Below, piece after piece: positions 8,305-27,055 of a stretch of DNA of 64,000 nucleotides (position 1 is its first letter; the number at the start of each line of letters is the position of its first letter). Below the pieces are notes generated by a model. It was not told the origin of the DNA and did no database searches. It saw only the letters and a program-made list of their open reading frames with translations. The stretch is taken from assembly GCF_014653785.1 (NCBI RefSeq), contig NZ_BNAS01000004.1, positions 441,046 to 505,045 of the forward strand, written 5' to 3'. The stretch comes from Promicromonospora soli (GTDB lineage Bacteria; Actinomycetota; Actinomycetes; Actinomycetales; Cellulomonadaceae). The translations under genes were made by a program, and so were the position numbers.

Positions 8305-9183
8305 ATGAGTACGAAGGACGAGGTGCGGGAGTTCCTGGTCTCCCGCCGCGCCAACGTCACGCCGCGGCAGGCCGGCATCCCCGACTTCGGTGGAGAGCGG
8401 CGCGTGCCCGGGCTGCGCCGCGAAGAGGTCGCCATGCTCGCCGGCGTCAGCCTCGACTACTACACGCGGCTGGAGCGCGGGAACATCCGCGGAGCCTCTC
8501 AGAGCGTGCTGGGCGCGATCGCGCGAGCGCTGCAGCTGAACGACGCCGAGCACGAGTACCTGTTCGACCTCGCCCGCACGGCGCCCGCGGCGGCCGCGCG
8601 CAAACCCAGGCCGGCTCCCGAGTCGGTGCGTACCTCGGTGCAACGCGTGCTGGACAGCATGACCCTGCCCGCGATCGTCCACAACGCGAACCAGGATCTT
8701 GTCGCCGCGAACCTCATGGGCCGTGCCCTGTACGCCCCGATGTTCGACACCGAGGGCACACCCAACGTCGCCCGGTTCATCTTCCTCGACCCCCGCGCCC
8801 AGGACTTCTACGTCGACTGGGCCCAGGCCCGCCGCGTGACGGCGGCGATGATGCGCCTGGAAGCCGGACGGGACCCGCTCAACCGGCAGCTCACGACGCT
8901 CATCGGCGAGCTCTCCACCCGCAGCCCGCAGTTCCGCGAGGACTGGGCCGGACACGACGTCCACGAGCACCGCACCGGGGTCAAGACGTTCCGCCATCCC
9001 GAGGTCGGCCCCATCGCGGTCGCGTTCGACGTGTTCGGGATGCCCGGCGAGGCCGGACTGATGATCGTCACCTACAGCCCTCCCCCGAACACCGACTCCG
9101 CCGACAAGTTCGCCCTGCTGGCCAGCTGGGCCGCCACTACCCAGCATCATGAGCGACCGCTCAGCGTGCCGCTGTCCGACTGA
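8305..9183 (+). CDS. XRE-family regulator with MmyB-like domain (second paralogue)
   Basis: A 292-residue paralogue of the regulators at 44 and 38424. It has the same N-terminal Cro/C1-type helix-turn-helix (RRVPGLRREEVAMLAGVS, DYYTRLERGN) and a C-terminal MmyB ligand-binding domain (IVHNANQDLVAANLMGRALYAP). ATG 8305 is preferred over upstream in-frame starts because homology begins there and a TATGGT hexamer (8292-8297) sits 7 nt before it, as in leaderless actinobacterial promoters. It lies downstream of an SDR on the same strand. Its 3' end overlaps the convergent GH31 gene by 23 bp. Confidence 0.88.
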   Translation: MSTKDEVREFLVSRRANVTPRQAGIPDFGGERRVPGLRREEVAMLAGVSLDYYTRLERGNIRGASQSVLGAIARALQLNDAEHEYLFDLARTAPAAAARKPRPAPESVRTSVQRVLDSMTLPAIVHNANQDLVAANLMGRALYAPMFDTEGTPNVARFIFLDPRAQDFYVDWAQARRVTAAMMRLEAGRDPLNRQLTTLIGELSTRSPQFREDWAGHDVHEHRTGVKTFRHPEVGPIAVAFDVFGMPGEAGLMIVTYSPPPNTDSADKFALLASWAATTQHHERPLSVPLSD

Positions 9184-11200
9184 CCTGGCCGACGAGATCC
9201 GGCAGCGCGCCGTCGCGAGCGAACACCGGGATGACATCGATCGGAGTGTCGACGGTGAGCCACTTGCCGCCGTCGTACGTGGTACCCGACCACAGGTCGG
9301 TCCATGCCGCGCCCTCGGGCAGGTACACGCGTCGGCTGGTCGCATGCGGCTCCACGATCGGCGCGACAAGGAGGTCGGGCCCGAACATGTACTGGTCCGC
9401 GAGGTCCCAGCACGTGGCGTCGCGGGGGAACTCGTGGAACATCCCGCGCATGACGGGCTGGCCGTTCGTGTGCGCCTCGGTCATGAGCCGGCGCGTGTAG
9501 GGGCGCAGCATCTCCCGCATGCGCGTGTAGCCGACGAGGATCTCGTAGACCTCCTCGCCGAAGCTCCAGAGCTCGTTCCCTGCCCCTGAACGGGCGCGGG
9601 GAGAACCGTCGGCGCTCGTGACCTCCTCATAGGGCTGGCGGTCGCCGTGCATGCGCATGACGGGGCAGAACGTACCGAACTGGAACCAGCGGACGAGCAG
9701 GTCGCGGAAGTCCGGGTCGTTGACGTCGCCGTTGTGGAACCCCCCGATGTCAGTGGTGAACCACGGGATCCCCGCGACACCCATGTGGAGGCCCGCGGTG
9801 ATCTGCCGGCGCAGGTCCGTGTAGGTCGAGTGGATGTCACCCGACCAGACGAGGGCGCCGTACCGCTGGCTACCTGCCCAGGCACAGCGCAGGAGGTTCA
9901 CCACCTCGTCCTGCCCCGCCGCCCTCTGGCCCTCGTAGAACATCCGCGCGAACGCCTGCGGGTAGATGTTTCCCACCTGCAGGTTCGAACCCTGGTGGTA
10001 GCGGTAGTTGTCGTAGTCGTAGACGCCGTACTCGGGCTCGGCCTCATCGAGCCAGAAGAGCTGGATGCCCAGGTCGTGGTAGTTCTGGCGGCAGATCTCC
10101 CACACCACCTCCCGGGTACGCGGGTTCGTGGCGTCGAGGAACATGCTGGGTCCCTGGAAGCCCATCTGCACGTCGAGACCCCGCTCCGTCCGGACGAGGA
10201 GGTTCTCCTTCTTCAGACGTGCGAAGTTCTCCGACTCGACCGAGACCTGCGGCCACACCGAGACCATGAGCTCGATGCCCAGCCCGCGGAGCTCGGCGAC
10301 CATGGCCGCCGGGTCCGGCCAGAACTCCTCCTCGAAGCGGAAGTCGCCCATCTTGGGCCAGTGGAAGAAGTCGGCGACGATCACGTCGAGGGGTAGGCCG
10401 CGACGCTTGTGCTCGCGTGCCACGTCCAGGAGCTGTTCCTGGTTCCAGTAGCGCAGCTTGCACTGCCAGTAACCGAGGCCGTACTCGGGCATCATCGGCG
10501 CGTGCCCGGTCGCGTCCGCGTACGCGGCGCTGATCGCGGCTGGTGAGCTGCTCACGGTGATCCAGTAGTCGAGCTGCTGGGTCGACTCCGCGATCCACTC
10601 GGTCCGGTTGGCGGCGAAGGTGGCCTGCCCGATGGCCGGGTTGTGCCACAGGAAGCCGTAGCCTGCGCTGGACATCACGAACGGCACGCTGGCCTGGGAG
10701 TTGCGGTGCGCCAGCTCGAACGTCGAACCCTTGATGTCGAGGATCTCCTGCTGGTACTGCCCCATGCCGTAGAGCTTCTCGCCGGGGACCGGCTCGAACG
10801 CGGCGCGCAGCCGATGGTCGCCGCCGATCACCGGCCGGAACTCACGAGCCTGGAGCTTGAGGGAACCGCCCTCGTCCAGCTCGCGCAGGACGGTCCTCCC
10901 TGCGGCGTCGCGGAACTCGACCGTGCACCGGAACACCTGGTACCCCGCCTGCTCGTCGTAGAAGTCCCGTGCCCGGAGCACCGCAGTGACGTCGCCGTTG
11001 GTCAGCGTCGCGACACCGTCGTCGACCGAGACCGTCACGGGAACCCGCTCCGGCTCGAGCAGCGCGAAGTCCGTGTCGAGCACGTCGGAGGCCGGAGCGC
11101 TGCGGACCCGGAGCGAGCTACGGCCCCATGCCTGGACCGTGAGAGTCTCGCCGTCGCCTCGCCAGGTGACGTGGTCCGGGCCGGTCTCGAATGTGTTCAT
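9161..11200 (-). CDS. Glycoside hydrolase family 31 enzyme (alpha-xylosidase/alpha-glucosidase type)
   Basis: A 679-residue cytoplasmic GH31 enzyme: no signal peptide, N-terminal beta-sandwich (about 1-230), then a TIM barrel. The nucleophile is Asp385 in FWLDEAEPE and the acid/base is Asp455 in WSGDIHSTYTDLR. The domain order and the long YGLGYWQCKLRYWNQEQLL segment resemble YicI-like alpha-xylosidases, but the substrate is not proven. It is last in an operon with a CUT1 transporter (13135-14403, 12106-13065, 11295-12104), implying hydrolysis of an imported alpha-linked oligosaccharide. The start is ATG 11200; an in-frame start at 11230 adds ten unconserved residues. Confidence 0.88.
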   Translation of the reverse strand: MNTFETGPDHVTWRGDGETLTVQAWGRSSLRVRSAPASDVLDTDFALLEPERVPVTVSVDDGVATLTNGDVTAVLRARDFYDEQAGYQVFRCTVEFRDAAGRTVLRELDEGGSLKLQAREFRPVIGGDHRLRAAFEPVPGEKLYGMGQYQQEILDIKGSTFELAHRNSQASVPFVMSSAGYGFLWHNPAIGQATFAANRTEWIAESTQQLDYWITVSSSPAAISAAYADATGHAPMMPEYGLGYWQCKLRYWNQEQLLDVAREHKRRGLPLDVIVADFFHWPKMGDFRFEEEFWPDPAAMVAELRGLGIELMVSVWPQVSVESENFARLKKENLLVRTERGLDVQMGFQGPSMFLDATNPRTREVVWEICRQNYHDLGIQLFWLDEAEPEYGVYDYDNYRYHQGSNLQVGNIYPQAFARMFYEGQRAAGQDEVVNLLRCAWAGSQRYGALVWSGDIHSTYTDLRRQITAGLHMGVAGIPWFTTDIGGFHNGDVNDPDFRDLLVRWFQFGTFCPVMRMHGDRQPYEEVTSADGSPRARSGAGNELWSFGEEVYEILVGYTRMREMLRPYTRRLMTEAHTNGQPVMRGMFHEFPRDATCWDLADQYMFGPDLLVAPIVEPHATSRRVYLPEGAAWTDLWSGTTYDGGKWLTVDTPIDVIPVFARDGALPDLVGQVSRTAAR

Positions 11201-11294
11201 CGGGTCGGTTCTCTTTCGTATCTGGTTCACGGCGCCGCTGAGTCAGCGGCCAGGTGTGGGGGCTCGGGTGCCGGCGAGAAGGCAGCCGGTGCTG

Positions 11295-12104
11295 TCAGTC
11301 CTTGACGGCTCCGGCGGTCACGCCTGCGGCGATGTACTTCTGGGCGACGACGAGCAGCGCCGCCGCGGGGATCGAGGCGACGACGGCCGCGGCCATCATC
11401 GGCCCCCACTCCTGGTTCTGCGCGCCGATGTAGTTGTAGATGCCCATGGTGATCGGACGCAGCGACCCGCCCTCCCGGTCGAGAGTGGAGGCGAACAGGA
11501 AGTCCGACCACGCCCACAGGAAAGCGAAGAGCGCGGCGGTGATCATGGAGTTTCGAGACATCGGTAGCACCACTGACCGGAACGTCCGCCATGCCGAAGC
11601 GCCGTCGAGCTGAGCGGCCTGCATGAGCTCGCGAGGGATTCCGGTCATGAAGGCTGTCAGGAGCATGACCGCGAACGGGACGGCGATCGTCGAGTCCGCC
11701 AGGACCAGCCCCGGGACTGTGTTGAGGAGCCCGATGCGGTTGTAGATGGAGTAGAACCCGAGCGACATGACGACGGCGGGAACCATCTGCGCCACGATGA
11801 GCGCGAAGTTGAGCATCCTGCGCCCGGGCACCGCCAGCTTGGCCAGCGCGAAGGACGCCGGCGCGGCGACCAGGAGGGTGAGCAGCACCGTTCCCAGGCC
11901 CACCAGGAGGCTCGTGCCCAGGTACGGCAGCTGCTCCCGGAGCACGACCGTGTAGTGCTCGAACGTGAGGTCGAAAGGCAGGAGGTCGCCTCGGCGGATG
12001 CTCTCGCGTCGCGTGAGCGAGACGTTGAGCATCCAGTAGACGGGGAAGAGCATGATCGCGGTCAGCGCGATCGCGACCGGGGTCGTCCACCACGAGCGGT
12101 TCAT
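11295..12104 (-). CDS. CUT1 ABC transporter permease, MalG type (locus A)
   Basis: A 269-residue inner-membrane permease with six predicted helices. It carries the cytoplasmic EAA loop (ELMQAAQLDGASAWRTFRSVVLP) that docks the ATPase. It pairs with the MalF-type permease directly upstream, one nucleotide separating that stop from this start. Together they import the oligosaccharide bound by the lipoprotein at 13135. No ATPase gene is nearby; a shared MsiK-type subunit encoded elsewhere is expected. Confidence 0.92.
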   Translation of the reverse strand: MNRSWWTTPVAIALTAIMLFPVYWMLNVSLTRRESIRRGDLLPFDLTFEHYTVVLREQLPYLGTSLLVGLGTVLLTLLVAAPASFALAKLAVPGRRMLNFALIVAQMVPAVVMSLGFYSIYNRIGLLNTVPGLVLADSTIAVPFAVMLLTAFMTGIPRELMQAAQLDGASAWRTFRSVVLPMSRNSMITAALFAFLWAWSDFLFASTLDREGGSLRPITMGIYNYIGAQNQEWGPMMAAAVVASIPAAALLVVAQKYIAAGVTAGAVKD

Positions 12105-12105
12105 G

Positions 12106-13065
12106 TCAGTCCTCCTGCTTGCGCTGGACGGCGATGTAGACGAACCCGAACAGCAGGGCGACGACCAGCAGGATCGTGCCCACGGCGGACGCCTCGGAGT
12201 AGCGGATCACCGACGACGTCCCCTTGCCGAAGGCCATCGCGTACGACCACGTGGCCAGCGTCTGAGAGCTGCCCGTGCCCGACGTCATGATCCAGATGAT
12301 GTCCACGACCTTGAGCGTGTAGACGAGGCCGAGCAGCAGCGTGATCAGCGTGACGGGGCGCAACATCGGGACCGTGATCCGCCAGAACTGCTGCCACGCG
12401 TCGGCACCGTCGAGCGCCGCCGCCTCGTAGAGGTCGGCCGGGATGTTCTGCAGGCCGGAGTACAGGATCACGAGGTTGAACGGGACGCCGAGCCAGATGT
12501 TCGCGATCGTGACCGAAAGCAGGGCGTTGTCGGCGTTCAGCCACCACACCGGGTCCGCGCCGAACATCCCGAGGAACGCGTTGAGCACACCGGTGTCGGG
12601 GCTCATCATCCACTGCCACGTCGTTCCGGAGACGATCACCGGCAGGAGCCACGGGATCAGAAAGAGGCCGCGCAGCGTGGCAGACATGCGGAACCCGCCG
12701 CGATGGAAGAAAGCGGCCAGCACCAGGCCGATCACGTACTGGAACAGGATGGACGCCGCGGTGAAGATCGCCGTCTGCCGCACCACGTCCCAGAACCGGG
12801 GTTGCGAGGCCACCTCGGCGTAGATGTCGAACCCGACGAACGGCGCGCCGCCGTTGACGAAGCTGAACCGGTCGAAGCGGTGCAGGCTCATCACGACGTT
12901 CTGTACCAACGGGTAGGCGTAGAACAGCACGAGGTAGATCACGAGTGGGGCGACGAACGCGACAGCCACCCACCTCGACTCGCGCCGGGGTCGTCGGCCG
13001 GCCGCGGGCGCGGGGACGCGTGCGGCCCGTACTGCGGCCAGCTTGGGAATCGTCAACAGGCTCAT
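12106..13065 (-). CDS. CUT1 ABC transporter permease, MalF type (locus A)
   Basis: A 319-residue permease with an Arg-rich cytoplasmic N-terminus, about six membrane helices and the EAA loop DLYEAAALDGADAWQQFWRITVP. It forms the transmembrane channel with the MalG-type partner. Expression is probably lower than that of the upstream binding protein, because a strong hairpin (13099-13126) lies between the two genes. Confidence 0.92.
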   Translation of the reverse strand: MSLLTIPKLAAVRAARVPAPAAGRRPRRESRWVAVAFVAPLVIYLVLFYAYPLVQNVVMSLHRFDRFSFVNGGAPFVGFDIYAEVASQPRFWDVVRQTAIFTAASILFQYVIGLVLAAFFHRGGFRMSATLRGLFLIPWLLPVIVSGTTWQWMMSPDTGVLNAFLGMFGADPVWWLNADNALLSVTIANIWLGVPFNLVILYSGLQNIPADLYEAAALDGADAWQQFWRITVPMLRPVTLITLLLGLVYTLKVVDIIWIMTSGTGSSQTLATWSYAMAFGKGTSSVIRYSEASAVGTILLVVALLFGFVYIAVQRKQED

Positions 13066-13098
13066 GGGTAACTCACCAGGTCTGGAGTCGGAGGATTC

Positions 13099-13126
13099 GG
13101 GTGCGCTCGCCGGGGCGAGCGCACCC
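13099..13126 (-). terminator. Intercistronic hairpin after the binding-protein gene (locus A)
   Basis: A perfect 12-bp GC-rich stem (13099-13110 with 13115-13126) and a 4-nt loop lie between the stop of the binding-protein gene and the start of the first permease gene. There is no T-tract. It is best read as an attenuator or mRNA-stabilising hairpin that raises binding protein over permease. The same arrangement occurs at 33514-33549. Confidence 0.75.
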
Positions 13127-13134
13127 GCGGACCG

Positions 13135-14403
13135 TCAGTAGCCGGACGCGTCCTGGAAGGCGGTCTCGACGCCGGAGGCGTCACCCGCGGCGTTCAGCGC
13201 TCCCTGGAGAGCCTCGGACAGCGATGCCGAGACACCGACATACTCGGACCCGAGCTCTGTCGTACGCCCGGCGGCGCCCTCGATCGGCGCGACCCACGGC
13301 TCCCAGAGCTGGCTTGCCGCAACCTGCTCGGCGCGAACGTCGGGCTTCGCGGACAGGTAGCCGAGCGTCTCGTTGGTGGTGAACGCCGCCTCACCCTCGG
13401 TCAGGCAGGCGATCACGGCCGCGGCGTTCGCGTAGTGGTCGGAGGCGTCGGTCGACTGGATCGGGGCGACGGCGAACTCGCCGCCGGTCGGCACGGGAGC
13501 GACACCGCCGTCCTTCGCCGGGATCGGGATCACGCCGGTCTTGAAGTCGGCGTCCGCGGCGGCCGCGGCGAACCATGAGCCGTTCTCGGCGAACGCGTAC
13601 TCGCCGGTGAGGAACAGGTCCCAGGCCGCCGACTGGTTGTCCGTCGCCGCGGAGCGCGGAGCCCAGCCCTTGCCGACCCAACCGGACAGAAGCTGTCCGG
13701 CGGAGACCGCCTCGGACGTGCCGATGTCGGAGAGGTCAGCGCCGGATCCCCAGAACCAGGGCAGGAACTGGAAGACGCCCTCCTCGCCCGCGATACCGGA
13801 GAAGGTGATGCCCTTGCTCCCGGTCGCGACGGTCTTCTCGAGGGCCGCCTCGAGCGAGGCCCAGTCGGTGATCGTCGCCGGGTCGACCCCCGCTTCCTCG
13901 AGCAGGTCCGCGTTGTAGTAGAGCCCGAGTGCGTTGGAGCCGAACGGGACGCCGTACTCCACGCCGTCGACGACGCCGGGTCCCATCAGGTTCTCGTCGA
14001 TGCCGGTCGTGGCGATGCCCGCCTGCTCGGCGGTCGCGAGCAGCTGGGCAGCGACCGCCTCAGGCATCATCGGGTTGTCCAGGACGACGACGTCCGGGGC
14101 CGTCCCCTCCTTGACCGCGGTCGTGAGCTGGTTGAACAGGTCTGTCTGGGGTGCGCTCGAGCGCACGATCGTCGACCCGTCAGGGGCGCACGACTTGACG
14201 TGCTCGTCCCACGGGGTGCCCTCGGTGTGCTGGGGGTACGGGTCCCAGAAGGTGATCTCGGCCGTGGTGGTGCCAGCGGACGCGTTTCCGTCGGCCCCCG
14301 GTTCCGGGGTCGAGCCGCCGCCGGCGCACGCCGCCAGGCCGAGACCTGTCGCCAGGGCCATGCTGAGGCCGAGGCCTCGACGCACCCTTGTTGTCGTTGT
14401 CAT
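13135..14403 (-). CDS. Sugar ABC transporter substrate-binding lipoprotein (locus A)
   Basis: A 422-residue extracellular binding protein of the CUT1 class. The signal peptide ends in lipobox LAAC with Cys26 lipidated. The mature protein shows the family-1 pattern (AEITFWDPYPQHTEG, then GTAPDVVVLDNPMMPEAV and YGVPFGSNALGLYYNADLLEEAGVDP). It presumably captures the oligosaccharide cleaved by the GH31 enzyme of the same operon. GGAGAGG precedes the ATG. The promoter upstream (14534-14595) is flanked by two LacI-type operators. Confidence 0.93.
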   Translation of the reverse strand: MTTTTRVRRGLGLSMALATGLGLAACAGGGSTPEPGADGNASAGTTTAEITFWDPYPQHTEGTPWDEHVKSCAPDGSTIVRSSAPQTDLFNQLTTAVKEGTAPDVVVLDNPMMPEAVAAQLLATAEQAGIATTGIDENLMGPGVVDGVEYGVPFGSNALGLYYNADLLEEAGVDPATITDWASLEAALEKTVATGSKGITFSGIAGEEGVFQFLPWFWGSGADLSDIGTSEAVSAGQLLSGWVGKGWAPRSAATDNQSAAWDLFLTGEYAFAENGSWFAAAAADADFKTGVIPIPAKDGGVAPVPTGGEFAVAPIQSTDASDHYANAAAVIACLTEGEAAFTTNETLGYLSAKPDVRAEQVAASQLWEPWVAPIEGAAGRTTELGSEYVGVSASLSEALQGALNAAGDASGVETAFQDASGY

Positions 14404-14533
14404 CGCACGTTACCTCTCCGTTGAGACGGACCGTTTCGGTCCTCGTGGTCAGCGGGGCGCCCGGCACTCCTGAGCCGTTGCTGCCCCCTGACGGGGCATC
14501 CGACGACACCGCTGCCGGCTTGCTGCCACCCTC

Positions 14534-14595
14534 AGCGAACCGGTTCGCTGATCATGCCAGCGCAAGCAGGAGAGGTCAAGGCGAACCGGTTCGCT
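14534..14595 (-). promoter_or_regulatory. Locus A transporter promoter between two LacI-type operators
   Basis: AGCGAACCGGTTCGCT (14534-14549, perfect 16-bp palindrome with central CG) and GGCGAACCGGTTCGCT (14580-14595) have centres 46 bp apart. Between them on the minus strand lies a promoter: TTGACC (14579-14574), 17-bp spacer, CATGAT (14556-14551). Thus one operator abuts the -35 box and the other lies 1 bp beyond the -10 box. The same design recurs at 20086-20147. Confidence 0.85.
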
Positions 14596-14908
14596 GCTTT
14601 GGTTTCGTTGTTTGGTGTCCAGGGATGAGCGGGCCGCCGGCACCCGGCAGGGCCGCTCCGGGATCGGGGTGGCACTTGGAGCCAGGCGTCCCTGCCCGTC
14701 GAGCAGGCCGACCACCTCGGTCTATGCGCGCTCCGTAACTTCACCCGCTAGGCATGCTTGCGTCATACGCATCTTTGCGCGTACCGTCGCTCTCGGCTGC
14801 AGGACGCAACCAACCGCAAGCTCCGGAAGCCGGAGCCCTACCCACCCCGTTGAAGGAGCGGCTTCTCACCTGGGAAGTCTCTCGGACGTCTGTCGAGGAG
14901 ACGCTCTT

Positions 14909-16894
14909 ATGTCCGTGCGTACACAGAAGACCGCTCGCCGTGTTGGTTCCGCCCTAGTTCTGCCAGGCATGGTCGCCGGGATGCTGGTGCTGGCCGCGCC
15001 GGCCACCGCCGCGGCAGGCCCGACCACCGGGATCTGCACCGGTGTGACGAACCAGCTGGCCCACCGGGGCGCCGTGCAGCCGAACCTGCTCAGGGCCGCG
15101 GCGCGCCAGAACGCCGAGCAGATCGCGAAGCTGCAGGCCGAGCGTGCCGCGCTGGTCACCACGCAGGAGAGCCTGACGGCGCAGGTCACCGCCGCGGAGC
15201 AGGAGATCGCCGCGCTGGACGCGCAGTACGCCACGCTGGTCGGGGAGATCGACACGGTGACGATGTCGCTGACGAAGCTGAACGCGGACAAGGCGACGCT
15301 GACCGCCGCCATCGCGGCGGCGAACGCCGAGCTGACGACGCTCCAGGATCAGCGCGCGACGCTGGTCGACCAGATCACCCCGCTGCAGACCCAGCTGACC
15401 GCCGCCCAGAGCGAGCTGGCCGACCTGACCACCCAGAAGGCCGACGTGGTCAGCAGCCTGGCCACCAAGGAGGCCGACCTGGCCGCGGCGAAGACCAGCC
15501 TGGAGGACCTGACCGGGAAGGCGACGACGGCGCAGGACGCCGTCAACGCCCAGCTGGCCGCGATCGACAAGGCGACGCAGGAGCTGGCCGGGCTGGTCAT
15601 CCAGGGTGACGCCGCGCAGGCCGCGGTGGACGCGGCCCAGGAGGAGCTCGCCGACGCTCGGGCGGCGCTGCCGGCACTGGAGACTGCCGCCCAGGCCGCT
15701 GCCACCGATGCCGCCGCTGCGAGCGCAGCGGTAGTCGCGGCCGAGGAGGAGCTCCGCCTGGCCGAGCAGAGCGTGCAGACCCTCACCGTGCAGATCGGCA
15801 CCATCGAGGCCGAGCTGCCCACGCTGCAGACGGAGATCGCCGGCCTGCAGGGTGACATCGCTACCAAGAACGCGCAGGTCACCGCGAAGCAGGAGGAGAT
15901 CGCCGCCGCCACCGCGATGCCGACCACCGACACGACCGGTCTGCAGGCCCAGCTCGCCGCGCTCGAGGCCGAGCTCGCGGCGCTGAAGGGCGCGGTGCCC
16001 AAGAAGAGGGCCGAGCTGCAGGCCCAGATCAACACGCTGAAGGGACAGATCGCCGCCGCAGAGCAGGAGGCCGCGGCCAAGACCGCGCTGATCAGCGCCC
16101 TGAACGGTGACCTGACCGCGCTGCAGGGTCAGCTGGCCACCCTGAACTCGCAGCTTTCGGCCAAGCAGCAGGAGAGCAGCGACCTCCAGCAGCAGCTCGC
16201 GGGCCTCCAGACCAGCCTGGCCGGCGCGAACGGACAGGTAGCCAGCGCCACCGTGGCGCTGGCCGACGCCAAGGCCACCCAGACCGCCGCGAACACCGCC
16301 CTGGACGACGCCAACGCCGCGGTGACCGCGAAGGAGGCGGAGATCGCCGAGCTCGAGGCGTCCCTGCCGGGCCTGACCGATGACCTGGCGGCCGCGAAGG
16401 CGGAGATCGCCTCCAAGCAGGGTGAGCTGACGGCCCTCGAGGACGCTCTGCCGGGCCTCCAGGACACCCTGACCGCGGCGAACACCGCGGTCACCACGCA
16501 GACCGCCGAGGTGACCAGGCTGGACGGCGAGGTCGCCACGCTGGTCACGACCCTGGCCGCGGTGAACAGCTCGATCACCGCGGCGGAGAACACGATCCTG
16601 TCCCTGCAGAACCAGCTCACCCCGCTGCAGTCCTCGCTGAACACGCTCAACCAGCAGATCAGCGAGAGGGAGGCCGCGCTGACCACAGCCAAGGCCGACC
16701 TGTCCGCGCTCGACGCCAAGATCGTCACCCAGTCCGCGACCCTGCGGACCCTGGAGAGCGCAAAGAAGCCCAACCGTGACGCTGTCGCCACCCAGAAGAC
16801 CGTCGTCGCAGGTCTCCAGGCCCAGTACGCCGCCGTTCTCGACCGCATCGCCGTCATCGACGGGACGATCGCGCTCGGTGGCTGCCTCGCCTGA
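14909..16894 (+). CDS. Secreted long coiled-coil protein of unknown function
   Basis: A 661-residue exported protein. A signal peptide of about 36 residues (LVLPGMVAGMLVLAAPATAAAG) is followed from residue about 65 to 650 by almost continuous Ala/Leu/Gln/Glu heptad-type coiled coil (repeated variants of LQxQLxxLxxEL). Only two cysteines remain after cleavage: Cys43 just before the coil and Cys659 at the extreme C-terminus (GGCLA). No LPxTG, lipobox, NlpC/P60 or membrane tail is present, so it is probably free in the wall or medium. The start is ATG 14909, 8 nt after GAGGAG (14895-14900). It lies within sugar locus A but on the opposite strand; no function can be assigned. Confidence 0.8.
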   Translation: MSVRTQKTARRVGSALVLPGMVAGMLVLAAPATAAAGPTTGICTGVTNQLAHRGAVQPNLLRAAARQNAEQIAKLQAERAALVTTQESLTAQVTAAEQEIAALDAQYATLVGEIDTVTMSLTKLNADKATLTAAIAAANAELTTLQDQRATLVDQITPLQTQLTAAQSELADLTTQKADVVSSLATKEADLAAAKTSLEDLTGKATTAQDAVNAQLAAIDKATQELAGLVIQGDAAQAAVDAAQEELADARAALPALETAAQAAATDAAAASAAVVAAEEELRLAEQSVQTLTVQIGTIEAELPTLQTEIAGLQGDIATKNAQVTAKQEEIAAATAMPTTDTTGLQAQLAALEAELAALKGAVPKKRAELQAQINTLKGQIAAAEQEAAAKTALISALNGDLTALQGQLATLNSQLSAKQQESSDLQQQLAGLQTSLAGANGQVASATVALADAKATQTAANTALDDANAAVTAKEAEIAELEASLPGLTDDLAAAKAEIASKQGELTALEDALPGLQDTLTAANTAVTTQTAEVTRLDGEVATLVTTLAAVNSSITAAENTILSLQNQLTPLQSSLNTLNQQISEREAALTTAKADLSALDAKIVTQSATLRTLESAKKPNRDAVATQKTVVAGLQAQYAAVLDRIAVIDGTIALGGCLA

Positions 16895-16906
16895 CCCGGG
16901 CACCGA

Positions 16907-16944
16907 AGGGGCCCCGCCCAGCCGATCGGCCGGGCGGGGCCCCT
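16907..16944 (+). terminator. Strong terminator after the coiled-coil gene
   Basis: A perfect 13-bp GC stem (16907-16919 with 16932-16944) with a 12-nt loop starts 12 nt after the stop. It lies between convergent genes and could serve both strands. Confidence 0.8.
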
Positions 16945-17009
16945 CCTACCTGCGATGCGAGGTGCGGTCGCCCTGCGGTGCTGGGCGTCGCCGTCTTGCA
17001 GCCGACCCG

Positions 17010-18017
17010 CTATGCGACGGTCGCGACGCTCCCGCGCTCGATGAGCCGGGGACCGACGAGCCGCGCTTCCGCGGGGGCGTCCGGGGAAGCGATCCGGCGT
17101 ACGAGCATCTCGATGGCGGCATGCGCGACGACGTCCGGACCGGACTCGACCGAGGTGAAGGGCAGGGCGTAGAGCCTGGCCAGCTCGGCGGAGTGGAGGG
17201 AGACCACGCTGCGGTCCCCGGGGACGTCGAGACCCGTGTCGTGGAGTGCGAACTGGAGCATCGCGGACGCCGCATCGTTGTGGACGATCAGGGCGCTGGG
17301 CCCGTCCGCCCGTCCCAGCTCGTCCCGGAGGGCCGCCCGCACCTGTTCGGGACCCACCGAGCACGAGAGCGGTTCGAGAGTCAGGCCCCGCTCGCCGGCC
17401 CGTTTTTCGGCCGCGCTCGCAAACCTGATCGCGTAGGTGCTGCCCCCGGCGTACACCTTGTCGGGCCACCGGACGAAGGTCGCTTCGCGGTGGCCGTGGT
17501 CCGCGAGATGGTCGACGAGAAGGCGGGCCGCGGCGGCGAAGTCGAGGTCGACCGAGTCGATCCCCCGCGTATCCTCCGGCATCCCCACGAGGACCGCCGG
17601 ATACCCCGCCTCGGCGATGGGCCCCAGGCGGGGGTCCCCTTCGACCACGCTGAGCAGGACGAGCCCGTCGACCTGACGGCCCGCGATGGCCTTGTTCACC
17701 GCCGCCTCTCCGTCCGGCTCGGTGAGGAGCACGACGGCGTACCCGCTCTCCCGTGCCGCGTCCGCGAGCGCCACGAGGTAGGTGGCCAGTGCCGGGCTGA
17801 ACTCCGCCTCGTGGAAACGCACCACCACACCGAGCGTCATGGTCCGTGCGGTCGCCAGGGCGCGGGCACCGGCGTTCACCGAGTAGCCCAGCATGGTGAT
17901 CGCCGCCTCGATCTTCTCGCGCGTTTCCGGGGAGACGAACTTGCGCCCGGTCAGAACCGAGGAGACCGTGCTGCGTGACACCCCGGCCTCGCGGGCCACG
18001 TCACCGATCGTCGCCAA
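17010..18017 (-). CDS. LacI-family regulator, likely repressor of locus A
   Basis: A 335-residue LacI/GalR protein. The helix-turn-helix is at 1-50 (IGDVAREAGVSRSTVSSVLTGRKF), with the hinge LGYSVNAGARALATARTMTLGVVV and a periplasmic-binding-like sensor domain after it. No ATG is available; TTG 18017 fits because AAAGGGG lies 7-8 nt upstream and the first residues (LATIGDVA) match the family. A near-perfect operator (18061-18076) lies in its leader and two operator pairs of the same sequence flank the neighbouring locus A promoters, so it is the best candidate regulator of all three. The inducer is unknown. Confidence 0.9.
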   Translation of the reverse strand: MATIGDVAREAGVSRSTVSSVLTGRKFVSPETREKIEAAITMLGYSVNAGARALATARTMTLGVVVRFHEAEFSPALATYLVALADAARESGYAVVLLTEPDGEAAVNKAIAGRQVDGLVLLSVVEGDPRLGPIAEAGYPAVLVGMPEDTRGIDSVDLDFAAAARLLVDHLADHGHREATFVRWPDKVYAGGSTYAIRFASAAEKRAGERGLTLEPLSCSVGPEQVRAALRDELGRADGPSALIVHNDAASAMLQFALHDTGLDVPGDRSVVSLHSAELARLYALPFTSVESGPDVVAHAAIEMLVRRIASPDAPAEARLVGPRLIERGSVATVA

Positions 18018-18034
18018 ATGAGTGCCCCTTTTCC

Positions 18035-18076
18035 CGGGGTGATTCCACCCCGTTTCGGCGAGCGTACCGGTTCGCT
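18035..18076 (-). promoter_or_regulatory. LacI leader: autoregulatory operator and hairpin
   Basis: AGCGTACCGGTTCGCT (18061-18076) matches the locus A operator with one mismatch and predicts autoregulation. Closer to the TTG start, CGGGGTG-ATTC-CACCCCG-type pairing (18035-18052) forms a hairpin directly before the ribosome-binding site and might limit translation. Confidence 0.65.
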
Positions 18077-18092
18077 CCGCCCGTATCGTGCA

Positions 18093-18125
18093 GGGCGGCC
18101 GACGGCGATTCGCCGTCGGCCGCCC
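18093..18125 (-). terminator. Terminator of the secreted glycosidase gene
   Basis: A perfect 15-bp stem (18093-18107 with 18111-18125) with a 3-nt loop lies 60 nt past the glycosidase stop on the minus strand, ahead of the LacI leader. It insulates the two transcription units. Confidence 0.82.
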
Positions 18126-18184
18126 CCGGTGGAGCCCCTCTACCTCGTGGCCACCGGACCACGGGCCCAGCTTGTTTGCAGCCC

Positions 18185-20014
18185 CTACTTCCCGAGCAGA
18201 CGCCAGGTCTGGTTGAGGGGGCTGCTCTGGCCGACCGGGTTGCAGGTCCACTGGTGGATCGCCGCGCCGGCCGACGTCGAGATCGTGCTCACGTCGACGC
18301 ACTTGCCGCTGTGCCGGGCGACGAGCTGGTAGTCCTGCGCACTGCTGCCCGAGTAGGTGACCTTGCGGAGCGTGAACTGCTGGTTCTGCGCGCCGGCGAT
18401 GCAGGTCCACTGGGTGACCGCGGCCCCGTTCGCCGTGGAGATACCCGACACGTCGAGGCACTTCCCGCTGTGCTCGTTGACGGCCGTGTAGGTGTCGGCG
18501 ACGCCGCTCACCGGAACGAACCGCCAGATCTGCTGGTTACCGCCCTCGCAGTGGTACTGCTGCTGCACGGTGCCGTTGGCCGTCGAGAGGTTGGTGTCGT
18601 CGAGGCACATCTGGCTGTGCTGCGCCACGGCGACGGTGGTGATCTCGGCGTTGCCCGGCGGCAGCAGGGTGACCGTGTACCCGTCGACGGTGTTCGCGCT
18701 GGGGATGTTGACGGTGGTCGCTCCGCTGCTCAGCGTCACGACGGAGCTGGAGATCGTCTCGGGTCCCTTGACCGCACCGCCGTTGTTGTACGGGACGCGC
18801 TGGACGACGACCCGCACCTGGTTGTTCGACACGATCCCCGTCGTCGAGGTCACGTTGTTGAGCCGGACCGCTATGTTGCCCGTCGTGCGTCCTCCGCCGA
18901 CGAGGATCTGCGCGCGCCCCGTGGTCTTGGTCGCGAACGCGTCGTAGCTGGGGCTGGGCGTCGTCGACACGATCGCGCCGGTCTGGGACCCGTAGTACCG
19001 GTACATCCACCACTCACCGGTAGGGAGGTACTGGCTGCCCGTCTTGACCAGCAGCTTGGCCTGAAGGTCGTTGAGCTGCTGGCCGAGGGCCCAGTTGGCC
19101 CGGAGCCCGACCGTGCCGGCCCGCTCGAACCGTGAGATGTACCACGCGCCGTCGGCTGGGTTCTGCTCGCTGGTCGACGCGTACTCGTTGATCTGGTAGG
19201 GCATCGTCCTGGTGATCCCGCGGGCGGAGAGCAGCGAGCTCGCGCCCTGCGAGCTGGTCACGGGGTCGCCCGGGAGGTTGTGCCAGGCATAGATGTCCGG
19301 CAGGACGTTGTTGGCCTTCGCGTAGTCCAGGAAGACGGGCCACAGCGGCGAGCTCTGCGGCGACCTTCCGGTGCTCGGCCCCACGATGACGGCGTCGGGG
19401 AAGGCGGTCCTGATGCGCTGGTAGCCCCTCTTCCACATCTCGAGGTACTGCGACTGCGAGCGGTTCCAGAACACTGAGATATCGGGCTCGTTCCAGATGT
19501 CCCACTGCACCTGCACGCCGCTGGCCCGGACGTCAGCGATGAGCTGGTTCATGAACGCGTCGTACGAGGCCCAGTCGCCGTTGTCCCCCGGGAAGACCGA
19601 AGCCTGCGTCTCGGCGTCGGCGCCCCACAGGTCGTGCACCAGCAGGACGAACTCGCCGCCGAGGTCGGCCGTGCGCTCGGCCTGAGCCTCGGTGGCGGCC
19701 CAGCGGCGCGGGTACGTCCCACCGATCCAGCCGCCCGGGTTGTCGAGCTGCGCGCCGCCAGCCCGCATGTAGTTCCACTTGATGTCGGTGTAGAAGTGGT
19801 CCTGCGGCAGGCCGCCGGACTCCGTCATCCCGTAGATGGTGCCGGAGGCGAGGTACTGCGGCGCGCCGCCGGAGACGGCGAAGTCGACGCTGATCTGCTC
19901 GTCGCCCGCGGTCGCCGTCGGCGCCGACAGCATCGACACCGCCAGTGCGCCCACCAGGGCCGGGGCCAGCAGTGCGCGGATGCGCCCGCTCCTCCTGTTG
20001 GATGAAGTGACCAC
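18185..20014 (-). CDS. Secreted GH39-like glycosidase with C-terminal ricin-type (CBM13) domain
   Basis: A 609-residue exported enzyme. Signal peptide about 1-36 (ends TATAGD), a TIM-barrel glycosidase to about 330, a beta-sandwich to about 460, then a ricin-type lectin with three QxW/QxF-like repeats (QQIWRF, QNQQFTL, LNQTWRL). The acid/base is likely Glu176 in DIWNEPD and the nucleophile Glu277 in QINEYAS; this pair fits clan GH-A, GH39-like. It probably attacks a plant polysaccharide outside the cell and feeds the locus A transporter. The start is GTG 20014 after AAGGAG. The double operator at 20086-20147 matches that of the transporter operon. GH family and substrate are tentative. Confidence 0.75.
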   Translation of the reverse strand: MVTSSNRRSGRIRALLAPALVGALAVSMLSAPTATAGDEQISVDFAVSGGAPQYLASGTIYGMTESGGLPQDHFYTDIKWNYMRAGGAQLDNPGGWIGGTYPRRWAATEAQAERTADLGGEFVLLVHDLWGADAETQASVFPGDNGDWASYDAFMNQLIADVRASGVQVQWDIWNEPDISVFWNRSQSQYLEMWKRGYQRIRTAFPDAVIVGPSTGRSPQSSPLWPVFLDYAKANNVLPDIYAWHNLPGDPVTSSQGASSLLSARGITRTMPYQINEYASTSEQNPADGAWYISRFERAGTVGLRANWALGQQLNDLQAKLLVKTGSQYLPTGEWWMYRYYGSQTGAIVSTTPSPSYDAFATKTTGRAQILVGGGRTTGNIAVRLNNVTSTTGIVSNNQVRVVVQRVPYNNGGAVKGPETISSSVVTLSSGATTVNIPSANTVDGYTVTLLPPGNAEITTVAVAQHSQMCLDDTNLSTANGTVQQQYHCEGGNQQIWRFVPVSGVADTYTAVNEHSGKCLDVSGISTANGAAVTQWTCIAGAQNQQFTLRKVTYSGSSAQDYQLVARHSGKCVDVSTISTSAGAAIHQWTCNPVGQSSPLNQTWRLLGK

Positions 20015-20085
20015 GAATGCTCCTTTGCAATCAGTGAAAGGGTTCGCCGTAGGCCCGGGTGTTCCTGTCGTGCCCTCGTTGATCC

Positions 20086-20147
20086 AGCGAACCGGTTCGC
20101 CAAGAGTGCCGCAACCCTGGCGACCGCGTCAAGCGAACCGGTTCTTT
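20086..20147 (-). promoter_or_regulatory. Glycosidase promoter between two LacI-type operators
   Basis: AGCGAACCGGTTCGCC (20086-20101) and AGCGAACCGGTTCTTT (20132-20147, degenerate right half) have centres 46 bp apart. A promoter lies between them on the minus strand: TTGACG (20132-20127), 18-bp spacer, CACTCT (20108-20103). A further half-site GGTTCGCC is at 20041-20048. The design equals that at 14534-14595, so the secreted enzyme and transporter are co-regulated. Confidence 0.83.
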
Positions 20148-20164
20148 CCCGGAGCCGGTCGGCG

Positions 20165-21175
20165 CTACTCGTCGTCGAGTCGCGTGGTGGACTGGCGCTC
20201 GATGACCCGGAGGGCGTCGCTGCTGATTCCTGTCGCGGGCGGGCCGTCGTCGAGGACCTGGCGCAGGCGCTCACGAATGTGGACGCCCGTCCCGGCGAAG
20301 TCGTACCGAACGGTCGACAGTGTCGGGCCCAGCAGGCCGGCGAGGGGCTCGTCGTCGATTCCGATGATCGAGACGTCCCCCGGGACGTCGAGTCCGATGG
20401 AACGGGCGGCGGCGACCGCGACGGCGGCGAAGAGGTCGTTGAAGCAGCACAAGGCGGTGATCCGGTCCGCGCCGGTGGCCACACGACCCAGCGCACTGGC
20501 GACAGTCGCGATGGCGGCCTCGTCCGGCGGGCCGGCCACGGAGATCACCTGGGGCGCCACGAGGCCCAGGCCCGCGGCGGCCTCACGCGCAGCGGCGAGC
20601 CGCGGTGTCGAGAAGGGTCGCACCTGGGCGTCGCTGACCGTCAGGATCCCGAGCCGGCGGTGGCCCAGGGCCGCGAGGTGCTCGACCTGCAGGGTCGCTG
20701 CCGCTCGGTCCAGCCGCTCGATCGGGGACGCCACCGAGATCACTGGGATGCTCGCCGCGCGGGCCGCGGCCGTGTCTTCCTCAGGGAGGGGCAGCACCTC
20801 GAGCAGCGCCTGTGGCGAGATGTCGCGCAGAGAGTCGAGCAGGCGGTTGCCGGGGCGGATGGCGAGGGCTACCAGGGACCGGTTGGTGGCGCGCACGGCG
20901 TCGGTCAGGGATGCGACGAGCTTCGCGAAGTTCGTGCTGGCCGGCACGTCGGGCAACGCAAGCAGCACGATCCCGGACTGCCCCTTGCGCAGCGCACGGG
21001 CCGCCGCATGCGGTGTGTAAGCCAGCTCTGCCGCTGCGGCGCGGACCCTGGCGACGGTCTCCGGGGCGAACGCCTGCCGGTTGCTCCCGTTCAGGATGTA
21101 GCTGACCGTCGAGCGGGACACGCCCGCTGCCGCCGCGACATCCGCGGCCGTCGCCCGTTGTCCGCTCACCCGCAC
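20165..21175 (-). CDS. LacI-family regulator (locus B side)
   Basis: A LacI/GalR protein of about 336 residues. The helix-turn-helix is AADVAAAAGVSRSTVSYILNGSNRQAFAPETVARV, followed by the hinge ELAYTPHAAARALRKG and a sensor domain with GIDDEPLAGLLGP near the end. The start is uncertain: GTG 21175 (chosen, just before the conserved part), GTG 21169 or GTG 21241. It follows the locus B binding-protein gene on the same strand. A perfect 14-bp palindrome lies in the gap between them. Confidence 0.85.
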   Translation of the reverse strand: MRVSGQRATAADVAAAAGVSRSTVSYILNGSNRQAFAPETVARVRAAAAELAYTPHAAARALRKGQSGIVLLALPDVPASTNFAKLVASLTDAVRATNRSLVALAIRPGNRLLDSLRDISPQALLEVLPLPEEDTAAARAASIPVISVASPIERLDRAAATLQVEHLAALGHRRLGILTVSDAQVRPFSTPRLAAAREAAAGLGLVAPQVISVAGPPDEAAIATVASALGRVATGADRITALCCFNDLFAAVAVAAARSIGLDVPGDVSIIGIDDEPLAGLLGPTLSTVRYDFAGTGVHIRERLRQVLDDGPPATGISSDALRVIERQSTTRLDDE

Positions 21176-21236
21176 ATCACCGCCGTAGTCGCTTGCGTTG
21201 TGCCGTAATAGCACCCTACAGCGCTCACACGATTCA

Positions 21237-21250
21237 CTCACACGTGTGAG
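21237..21250. promoter_or_regulatory. Candidate LacI-type operator before the locus B LacI gene
   Basis: CTCACACGTGTGAG is a perfect 14-bp palindrome with the central CG typical of LacI-family sites. A half-site copy (GCTCACACG) lies just beside it at 21223-21231. It sits between the binding-protein stop and the regulator gene, so autoregulation is the simplest reading. Confidence 0.6.
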
Positions 21251-21269
21251 CGGCGCCCTCGCGCCCCTC

Positions 21270-22649
21270 CTACTCGGCGAGGAGCTCGTTCACGCGCCGG
21301 TTCGCCGGTGCCAGGCTCTCCGGGTCGGACTGGAACGAGAGCACCGAGTCCATGGTGGGCTGCATGATCGTCTGCAGCTCGGCCCAGCGGTCGGTGACCG
21401 GCGACGGCGTCGTCGTGCCGTCGGTCACGTGGACGGAGAAGGCGTCGGCGTCCACGCCGATCTCCTGGAAGGCCGCCACCGCCCGGTCGGAGGCCTCCTT
21501 GACGGCCGGGAAGACCCGCGCCTCTTCCGCCACCCGGAGCTGGCAGTCGGGGCTCGCGAGGTACTCGACCCAGGCCCAGGCCTCGTCGGGGTGCGGCGTG
21601 CCGGCGTAGATCGCGTCCGACAGGCCGTTGAACACCGTGCCCCGCTCCCCCGACGGCCCCACCGGCGTGGGGGCCACCTGGAAGTCGGCGCCGCCCAGCT
21701 CGCTGATCGACCGGGCGTTCCACGAGCCCTCGATCAGGCTGGCGTACGCCCCCGCGCCGAGCGCCTCCTGGCTGCCCACGCCCGACGTCGCTACCGCCAG
21801 CGGCGGCATGTAGCCCTTGTCGACCAGCGAGCGCCACCAGCCGATCGTCTCGACCAGGGCCGGTTCGTCGTAGCGGAACTCCGTAGGCCAGGGGTTGCGG
21901 TCGGAGTAGGTCCAGCCGTTGCTCAGCGCGAACGAGGCCCACTGGACCTGGCCGTACCCGCCGCCCGACTCGTTGTACCCGAGCCCGTAGACCTCGACGT
22001 TGTCCTTGTCGAAGCCGGGCTCGTCACCCCGCACGCCGTTGCTGTCGACGCTCATGTGGGCGACGAACTCCTCGAACGTGCCGCCGTCGGCCGGGTTCCA
22101 CTCCAGCTCCCACAGGTCGTCCTGCGTGTATCCGGCGTCGGCGAGCATGTCCGCGTTGTAGTACAGACCCACGGTGTCCCAGTCCTTCGGCAGCCCGTAC
22201 AGGCCGCCGTCCTGCCCGCGCCACAGGTCCACGAGGCCGTCCTGGTACTGGGACAGGTCGATCCCCGAGGCGGCGACCCGGTCCGAGACGTCGAGGATCT
22301 GGTCGAGCTCGGCGAACTTGCCGAACTGCTGCGAGTGGTCGACGAACACGTCGGGCGCGCTCTCGGCCACCATGCGGGCGGTGAGCTGCGTCCAGTAGTC
22401 GTCCCAGCCGTACTGCTCGATGTTGACCCGGACGCCGGGGTTGGCGGCCTCGAAGTCGGCCGCGCACTTCTGGTACCCGGGGACCTGGTTGGCGTCCCAC
22501 ATCCAGTAGGTGAGCGTGACCGTGCCGTCCGTCGCGGCCTGGGACGTGCTCGCGCAGCCGGCCGCACCCAGCGCGACGGCGGCCGCCGCGAGCGCGGCGA
22601 CGGCGCGCCCGGTCGTGCTCGTCCTGCTGCTGCTTGTCATCGTCGTCAT
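21270..22649 (-). CDS. Sugar ABC transporter substrate-binding lipoprotein (locus B)
   Basis: A 459-residue CUT1 binding protein. The signal peptide ends in GAAGC with Cys32 lipidated. Mature features include VTLTYWMWDANQVPGYQKC, SAPDVFVDHSQQFGKF and YGLPKDWDTVGLYYNADMLADAGY. ATG 22649 follows GAGG by 9 nt. A GTG at 22664 overlaps the permease stop (GTGA) and is an alternative coupled start. Unlike in loci A and C the binding-protein gene comes last in the operon, after the alpha-galactosidase and both permeases. The ligand is likely an alpha-galactoside. Confidence 0.92.
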   Translation of the reverse strand: MTTMTSSSRTSTTGRAVAALAAAAVALGAAGCASTSQAATDGTVTLTYWMWDANQVPGYQKCAADFEAANPGVRVNIEQYGWDDYWTQLTARMVAESAPDVFVDHSQQFGKFAELDQILDVSDRVAASGIDLSQYQDGLVDLWRGQDGGLYGLPKDWDTVGLYYNADMLADAGYTQDDLWELEWNPADGGTFEEFVAHMSVDSNGVRGDEPGFDKDNVEVYGLGYNESGGGYGQVQWASFALSNGWTYSDRNPWPTEFRYDEPALVETIGWWRSLVDKGYMPPLAVATSGVGSQEALGAGAYASLIEGSWNARSISELGGADFQVAPTPVGPSGERGTVFNGLSDAIYAGTPHPDEAWAWVEYLASPDCQLRVAEEARVFPAVKEASDRAVAAFQEIGVDADAFSVHVTDGTTTPSPVTDRWAELQTIMQPTMDSVLSFQSDPESLAPANRRVNELLAE

Positions 22650-22660
22650 CGTCGATGTCC

Positions 22661-23623
22661 TCACTTGATCCCGGAGAAGCCGATGGAGTTCACGATCCGC
22701 CGCCCGAGCACGACGAAGAGCAGCACGATGGGCAGCGCCGCGACCAGGGTCGCCGCCATGAGCCCCGCCCAGTCCGGGCTGCCCTGCGGCGTCTGGGAGC
22801 GGAAGATGCCGAGCGCGACGGTGAGCACCCGAACGCCGTCGGACTGCCCCACGAGCAGCGGCCAGAAGTACTCGTTCCACGCCTGGATGTAGGTGAGCAC
22901 CGCGAGCGTGGTGATCGGTGCGGCACTCATCGGGAGGATGATCCGCAGGAACGTGCGGCCCCTGCTGGCGCCGTCGATCATCGCGGCCTCCTCGATCTCG
23001 TGCGGGATGCCGAGGAAGAACTGCCGCAGGAAGAAGATCGCGAACGGCGTCATGAAGAACGTCGGCAGCACGAGCCCGGGGAACGTGTTGAGCAGGCCCA
23101 GCTCCTTGATGAGCACGAAGTTCGGGATCGCCGTGAAGATGCCGGGCACCATGAGGGCGGACAGGAACACCGCGAACACGGCGTTGCGGCCCGGCCAGCG
23201 CAGGCGGGCGAAGGCGTAGGCGGCCATCGCGGAGAAGAAGACCTGCCCCAGGGTGATGGCGGTGGACATGATCACCGAGTTGCGCAGGTAGAGCCAGAAG
23301 TTGATCCGTCCGCCGGCGCCGCCCTGGGCCAGCGACTCCTCCAGCGTGGTGAGCCCGAACACGCGCCGGAACGCGTCGAGCGTGAAGCCGGCCGGAGCGA
23401 GGTTCGCCGCTTGGGCGGCGAGCTCGGAGTTGGTGGAGAACGCCGTGCGCAGCATCCAGTAGAACGGGAAGAGCGTGATCAGCAGGATCACGATCATCGT
23501 GGCCCAGCCCAGGACGGTGCCCCAGCGTGGTCGCCGCGACCCCTTCTCGGGTGCGCCGGCGGGACGGGGGACCTCTGCGGGCGGGGTGGCGGGCGGTGTG
23601 GCGGGCACGATCGTCGTCGACAT
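22661..23623 (-). CDS. CUT1 ABC transporter permease, MalG type (locus B)
   Basis: A 320-residue permease. A Pro-rich cytoplasmic N-terminus precedes six predicted helices, and the EAA loop is EIEEAAMIDGASRGRTFLRIILP. It partners the MalF-type permease at 23649 and the binding protein at 21270 for uptake of the sugar split by the GH36 enzyme. Confidence 0.92.
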   Translation of the reverse strand: MSTTIVPATPPATPPAEVPRPAGAPEKGSRRPRWGTVLGWATMIVILLITLFPFYWMLRTAFSTNSELAAQAANLAPAGFTLDAFRRVFGLTTLEESLAQGGAGGRINFWLYLRNSVIMSTAITLGQVFFSAMAAYAFARLRWPGRNAVFAVFLSALMVPGIFTAIPNFVLIKELGLLNTFPGLVLPTFFMTPFAIFFLRQFFLGIPHEIEEAAMIDGASRGRTFLRIILPMSAAPITTLAVLTYIQAWNEYFWPLLVGQSDGVRVLTVALGIFRSQTPQGSPDWAGLMAATLVAALPIVLLFVVLGRRIVNSIGFSGIK

Positions 23624-23648
23624 GCCCCCTCCTTCGGTTGGTGTGGGT

Positions 23649-24581: not shown

Positions 24582-24625
24582 GTGTCTCTCCTGTCGCGTC
24601 GTTGCGATCTCGGTCTTGCTGGTGG

Positions 24626-26854: not shown

Positions 26855-26888
26855 CGGGGTCCTTGTGGTCGAGTGACGTCGGCGTCGA

Positions 26889-26923
26889 AGTAAGTTTTAC
26901 TACGAAAGATATTAGAGGGTCAA
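26889..26923. promoter_or_regulatory. AT-rich promoter and candidate ROK operator (locus B)
   Basis: AGTAA-GTT-TTACT (26889-26901) is a perfect inverted repeat in the only AT-rich patch of the region. On the minus strand TTGACC (26923-26918) could be the -35 box of the alpha-galactosidase operon, with the -10 box falling at or inside the palindrome. Control by the divergent ROK protein is inferred from position. Confidence 0.55.
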
Positions 26924-27055
26924 GAGAGGCAAGTAGCCGGATTTCTCCATCCCTTACGTTTCGCCATGCAAGGAACGCGGCGGTAGGGTGGCGACGCGGC
27001 ACAATGACGAAGACGCCGACGATCGGCGGGCGACCGATACGGACTCGGAGGAACG

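Follow-up and report, generated by a model that had tools for sequence, protein, structure and literature searches.

The window (the whole stretch of 64,000 nucleotides of Promicromonospora soli analyzed here) holds a group of minus-strand genes for sugar transport and glycoside hydrolysis, a gene for a LacI-family regulator that we call LacI_A, and five copies of an operator-like palindrome. The features of the locus, in order of position, are as follows.

9161..11230, minus strand: GH31 enzyme, probably an alpha-xylosidase (Pfam GH31; closest solved relative the alpha-xylosidase MeXyl31, E 1.4e-251)
11295..12104, minus strand: ABC permease 2 (BPD_transp_1)
12106..13065, minus strand: ABC permease 1 (BPD_transp_1)
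13135..14403, minus strand: extracellular sugar-binding protein (SBP) of the ABC transporter (SBP_bac_8 / SBP_bac_1)
14534..14549, minus strand: O2 (downstream operator) of the SBP-ABC-GH31 operon; exact palindrome, 14-mer core 2 bp from the -10 box
14551..14579, minus strand: promoter of the SBP-ABC-GH31 operon, TTGACC-17-CATGAT, with TG ahead of the -10 box (shuffle p 0.0004 between the operators)
14580..14595, minus strand: O1 (upstream operator) of the SBP-ABC-GH31 operon; 1 mismatch, abuts the -35 box, with TTGACC starting 1 bp past the 14-mer core
17010..18017, minus strand: LacI-family regulator LacI_A, TTG start, proposed reader of all five sites (LacI and Peripla_BP_3 domains; same sites at ortholog loci)
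18061..18076, minus strand: lacI_A operator (putative autoregulation), 43 bp before lacI_A; 1 mismatch
18093..18125, no strand assigned: perfect 16-bp inverted repeat, possible terminator, between the GH39-like gene and lacI_A
18185..20014, minus strand: GH39-like glycosidase with a C-terminal ricin-type lectin domain, probably secreted (Pfam; solved GH39 relatives)
20086..20101, minus strand: O2 of the GH39-like gene; 1 mismatch, 14-mer core 2 bp from the -10 box
20103..20132, minus strand: tentative promoter of the GH39-like gene, TTGACG-18-CACTCT, weak -10 box (shuffle p 0.006)
20132..20147, minus strand: O1 of the GH39-like gene; 2 mismatches, outer end degenerate

The GH39 Pfam match scored 22.5, below the cut-off of 26, and GH39 relatives are present among solved structures; secretion of this protein was judged by eye from its N terminus. 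NCBIfam names were also sought for the regulators and the GH31 enzyme, and every match fell far under its cut-off. Two neighbors complete the picture. Between the operons, and divergent from the SBP operon, lies a plus-strand gene (14909-16894) whose translation suggests a long, repetitive, coiled-coil-like protein with a signal-like start, and which has no operator directly in front of it. On the other side, the minus strand carries a GH36-permease-permease-SBP-LacI_B cluster (20165-26854), in which GH36 and LacI_B were assigned by Pfam and the rest by eye; a LacI_B operator was sought in 26800-27080 and 22700-22900, where only weak inverted repeats were seen.

A scan of the window for the palindrome AGCGAACCGGTTCGCT at up to three mismatches returned five sites, compared with a mean of 0.45 and a maximum of 2 in dinucleotide shuffles. 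The original prediction had placed copies of the palindrome at these five positions; all five sites are there, but just one of them is exact (14534-14549), with one mismatch each at 14580-14595, 18061-18076, and 20086-20101, and two at 20132-20147, which is degenerate at one end. The scan confirmed the layout that had been described: a distance of 5.5 kb separates two promoters on the minus strand, each of which lies between an operator pair with a center-to-center spacing of 46 bp (14534/14580 and 20086/20132), and a single further copy stands ahead of the LacI gene. In the host genome (5.38 Mb in 20 contigs), all three occurrences of the exact 14-mer GCGAACCGGTTCGC are at this locus, and a search for pairs of the exact 12-bp core 34-62 bp apart returned a single pair in that genome; the GH39 pair falls outside this search because it carries a mismatch. 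A further degenerate copy (20032-20048, 82% to the 20085 site) lies in the leader of the GH39-like gene, 53 bp from its O2.

Promoter calls relied on a consensus of the E. coli type. The SBP promoter is the sole promoter-like match in 9000-27200, but shuffles of this region average 0.6 matches, so that the match by itself is no evidence; its position between the operators, and the same position in relatives, is. As predicted, one operator lies at the -35 box and the other at the -10 box of both the SBP and the GH39 promoter. The distance of 46 bp is assembled differently in the two cases, as 1 bp, a 17-bp spacer, and 2 bp at the SBP promoter and as 0 bp, an 18-bp spacer, and 2 bp at the GH39 promoter. 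The idea that one promoter is a duplicate of the other was rejected, given that the sequences between the operators are, by eye, alike in little but the TTGAC box.

LacI_A has the domains of its family above cut-off, with an N-terminal LacI helix-turn-helix (PF00356, 60.6 bits) and a periplasmic-binding-protein-like sensor (PF13377, 97.4 bits), and the sites are what is expected of LacI/GalR-family operators: even palindromes with a central CG, near regulated genes and near the regulator's own gene. A family search at 1e-60 matched LacI_A in 59 of 221 genomes, mostly through a paralog, LacI_C. Orthologs proper (57-76% identity) were found in 15 other genomes, 16 with the window, including Antribacter soli (76%), seven Glycomyces strains, Myceligenerans pegani, and a Propionibacteriaceae MAG; Antribacter and Myceligenerans were returned by both the family search and the search of named genomes and were counted once, and two loci at 24-25% identity (L056, L057) were excluded. 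Matching palindromes precede various SBP, GH31, GH39-like, and lacI_A genes in the ortholog genomes. LacI_B (20165-21241) had no match at 1e-15 in the 18 ortholog and paralog loci searched (loci, as distinct from whole genomes), and since the palindromes are kept at LacI_A ortholog loci where LacI_B has no match, the sites travel with LacI_A. The best reading of these patterns is that the operators belong to a local LacI-family regulon whose probable reader is LacI_A. The proposal that a single LacI regulon joins the transporter/GH31 operon to the secreted GH39-like enzyme thus gains support from the way in which the sites accompany LacI_A in distant genomes.

With a pair defined as two sites at up to two mismatches and 40-60 bp apart, 10 of the 16 genomes contain 12 pairs, spaced at 45, 46, 46, 48, 49, 49, 49, 50, 52, 55, 55, and 55 bp. 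Every pair encloses a promoter-like sequence directed toward the next gene, so the claim that two operators bracket a promoter is supported in 12 of 12 pairs; the individual shuffle p values range from 0.0004 to 0.015 and combine to 4e-17, a figure that overstates the case because the pairs come from orthologs of common ancestry and do not count as independent events. The -10 box ends 2 or 5 bp ahead of O2 in all 12, and the -35 box starts 0-7 bp past O1, narrowing to 0-2 bp in the eight pairs whose next gene encodes an SBP, GH31, or GH39-like protein. The four pairs at 52-55 bp are from Glycomyces and face a common protein of ~1,200 residues that has a glycosidase-like part and whose copies are 78-79% identical to one another. 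Promoters with a single site or abutting sites behave similarly: in 10 of the 12 examined, the operator follows the end of the -10 box by 3-5 bp, which argues that O2 is the fixed element of repression, to which O1 may or may not be added; one of these promoters (L049) ties with another candidate, and no such promoter was found at the other two, a 50% relative (L063) and the Myceligenerans locus with abutting sites (L048). At this last locus, the GH39-like gene has two abutting operators 16 bp apart (7803-7832) and no bracketing pair.

The spacings of these pairs show little concentration of helical phase. Spacing by whole helical turns, as expected of a loop, was not found among the LacI_A pairs: R is 0.25 for the 12 pairs at 10.5 bp and 0.18 for the seven distinct values, and the best R for the 12 pairs (0.28) is equaled or exceeded by 11012 of 20000 random sets. 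Taken by themselves, the eight SBP/GH31/GH39 pairs give a moderate R of 0.55 over a range of 45-50 bp, which we do not read as phasing. A fixed 46-bp loop is rejected on the spacings in relatives.

We consider it very likely that a local, sugar-responsive LacI_A represses these promoters by bracketing them and that the 46-bp distance simply follows from how long the promoter is. With O2 lying just past the -10 box, a LacI_A dimer bound there would stop the open complex from forming or transcription from starting, and another dimer, bound to O1 at the -35 box, would further exclude RNA polymerase. Both operators would be freed by a sugar that the cell imports; since the GH31 enzyme resembles alpha-xylosidases, this sugar likely comes from xyloglucan. 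The 46 bp would then be the sum of two operators of 14-16 bp and a promoter with a 17-18 bp spacer, with no need for a particular helical phase. The original prediction had instead seen in the identical geometry a conserved clamp or loop dependent on helical phase, in which two LacI_A dimers would touch across the promoter in a mini-loop at 46 bp, and the equal spacing of two pairs in one genome despite their different promoter make-up would be in keeping with this. However, the 45-55 bp of the relatives cover almost all phases (R 0.18-0.28), and 46 bp corresponds to about 4.3-4.4 turns rather than a whole number, leaving the operators off the same face. The equal spacing is itself unremarkable, since two of the 10 pairs from outside the window agree by chance in 13% of random draws. 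Pairs at other spacings, which the original prediction itself had named as evidence against the clamp, exist in relatives rather than in the host genome. Further, LacI_A (335 aa) aligns to the dimeric PurR as far as residue 332, three residues short of its end, and its alignment to the 360-aa lac repressor stops at LacI_A residue 309 (lac repressor residue 307); as these alignments leave no residues for it, LacI_A appears, on this indirect evidence, to lack the C-terminal tetramerization tail of LacI. We regard such a clamp as highly improbable.

It is possible, if somewhat doubtful, that the two operators act independently, with O2 repressing and O1 merely raising the local concentration of repressor or serving as a redundant block. 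Several orthologous promoters have a downstream operator only, and the O1 of the GH39-like gene is degenerate, both of which favor this reading, but an O1 within 0-2 bp of the -35 box in eight of eight SBP/GH31/GH39 pairs suggests selection for steric overlap. It is unlikely that the sites are read by another LacI-family protein, either LacI_B next door or LacI_C elsewhere in the genome. The LacI_B gene is immediately upstream of the GH39 promoter, but the protein is without a match at the ortholog and paralog loci, as noted above. LacI_C sites likewise have the CGAACCGGTTCG core, and in 18 of 128 both outer ends are G or C, which favors LacI_C as a reader; the remaining 110, however, have T or A at one outer end or more, whereas LacI_A sites mostly have G/C.

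LacI_A may also regulate its own gene. In eight of the nine lacI_A promoters compared (those of 62-76% orthologs, including 18061-18076 and the loci L046-L049, L051, L052, and L059), one half of the operator departs from the palindrome by one base in the same way (GGTAC; GATAC in Myceligenerans), the exception being G166. The altered half could be a -10-like box (TACGCT/TACACT) within the operator, or it could reflect a weakened site; a partnering -35 box for TACGCT/TACACT was sought by eye, and none was conserved. No site at up to two mismatches was found just before lacI_A in four Glycomyces loci (L050, L053, L054, and L055).

A different pattern of spacing is seen for LacI_C, a group 42-50% identical to LacI_A with a copy in the host genome (G000:C6:58857-59861, locus L064). 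Its operators often occur as two sites upstream of the lacI_C gene; at L064 (G000:C6:50000-69999), for instance, they lie at 8705 and 8813. We collected 79 LacI_C loci from the 221 family genomes and a class search (21 of 394 genomes), 10 of them less than 65% identical to LacI_C. Within 300 bp and at up to one mismatch, 50 of the 79 have at least two sites, 24 have one, and five have none; the LacI_C loci include L064, L026-L045, L071-L107, and L126-L145. Across genera, the spacings fall at 65-66, 75-77, 86-87, 107-108, 119, 128-130, and 140-142 bp, and a further five pairs lie at 173-208 bp. The commonest values (65, 76, 87, 108, 119, 129, and ~141 bp) step by ~10.7 bp (turns 6, 7, 8, 10, 11, 12, and 13), with nine turns (~97 bp) absent from this set. 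At 10.7 bp, R is 0.949 for the 36 of 46 pairs used in the pair test (the 10 above 135 bp were excluded) and 0.935 for 19 genus-spacing values; none of 20,000 random sets reaches either.

We also tested this concentration by lineage. A tree of 48 LacI_C proteins requires at least 11 changes of turn class; lineages were picked from it by hand, and 19 of its 45 inner branches are poorly supported. Taking a single value from each lineage gives R 0.942 (n=15) or 0.968 (n=13), which none of 20,000 random sets reached; when the period is held at 10.5 bp, R for the 15 lineages falls to 0.88. A single value from each cluster (n=7) gives R 0.98 (1 of 20,000 random sets). As a control, the distance from operator to start codon gives an R of 0.28-0.36. 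The lineage test involved several choices, which we varied. It excluded five pairs (173, 203, 207, 207, and 208 bp); adding them back as three values lowers R to 0.875 (0 of 20,000). In one genus (g15), it used the operator beside the -10 box (128-130 bp) and not the nearest site (145-147 bp), and the nearest-site choice gives R 0.81 (0 of 20,000). It included three pairs with a two-mismatch site (L042, L077, and L138), added to the tree set, without which R is 0.95 (0 of 20,000), and omitted another (L131, 219 bp). With every unfavorable choice combined, the 219-bp pair included, R is 0.74 (1 of 20,000).

LacI_C pairs thus mostly have the whole-turn spacing expected of loop-forming repression, and LacI_C probably uses looping or another phase-dependent contact. 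A promoter also lies between the LacI_C sites, with a -10-like box directly ahead of the proximal operator (by eye). LacI_C is a protein of 334 aa whose match to the 341-position PurR model runs to position 330, with no room seen for a LacI tetramerization tail, so that looping would have to be GalR-like. The distal site precedes a divergent GH39-like gene in nine of the 79 loci (Promicromonospora and a few relatives), and one further match is non-divergent.

These arrangements can be compared with known systems. A survey of LacI-family regulons found tandem sites ahead of 1118 operons, ~20% of regulated operons, with inter-site distances peaking at 13, 22, and 32 bp, of which the two longer were interpreted as cooperative binding; the word "loop" is absent from its main text (Ravcheev et al. 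2014, PMC4052901). The regulons described there resemble that of LacI_A in their even palindromes, central CG, multiple sites, and common autoregulation, whereas the LacI_A spacing, at 45-55 bp, is outside those peaks and appears to be set by the enclosed promoter. In E. coli reporters, the proximal operator dominates, distal sites for GalR, LacI, and AraC act with a periodicity of 10-11 bp, and distal PurR sites gave no enhanced repression (PMC7804116). Our reading of LacI_A is similar to what these lac promoter libraries describe, in that a downstream operator would block polymerase and an upstream one would add to this, but the distal site in the libraries is at -83 to -116 and that of LacI_A is beside the -35 box; it is the LacI_C pairs that resemble their lac-type loop arrangement. 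The window pair would accordingly be an ordinary repressor layout of a sugar regulon and a further example of a known arrangement, and the contrast with LacI_C carries more weight than the pair itself.

We think it probable that sister repressors in one genome, with a common operator core, work in two modes: LacI_A hugging its promoters free of phase, and LacI_C shifting its operator distances by whole turns across genera, in what would be a natural record of selection for looping without a tetramerization tail in Actinobacteria. In E. coli, operator phasing has been seen with series of engineered spacings, and evolution seems to have run such a series across genera. Our searches of the open-license literature, which returned mostly studies of looping in E. 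coli and surveys of regulons, turned up no report of turn-quantized operator spacing across genera. LacI_C promoters would offer a natural test set for looping by LacI-family proteins that have no tetramerization tail.

Two smaller observations concern these loci. Genus g15 (L094, L095, L096, and L099) has a second proximal LacI_C operator 17 bp downstream of the first. A protein of ~1,200 residues with a glycosidase-like part (L053, 4153-7887) has relatives in L049, L050, L052, L054, L055, L060-L062, L064, and L065, and its presence at LacI_A loci as well as LacI_C loci means that some targets may be common to the two regulons.
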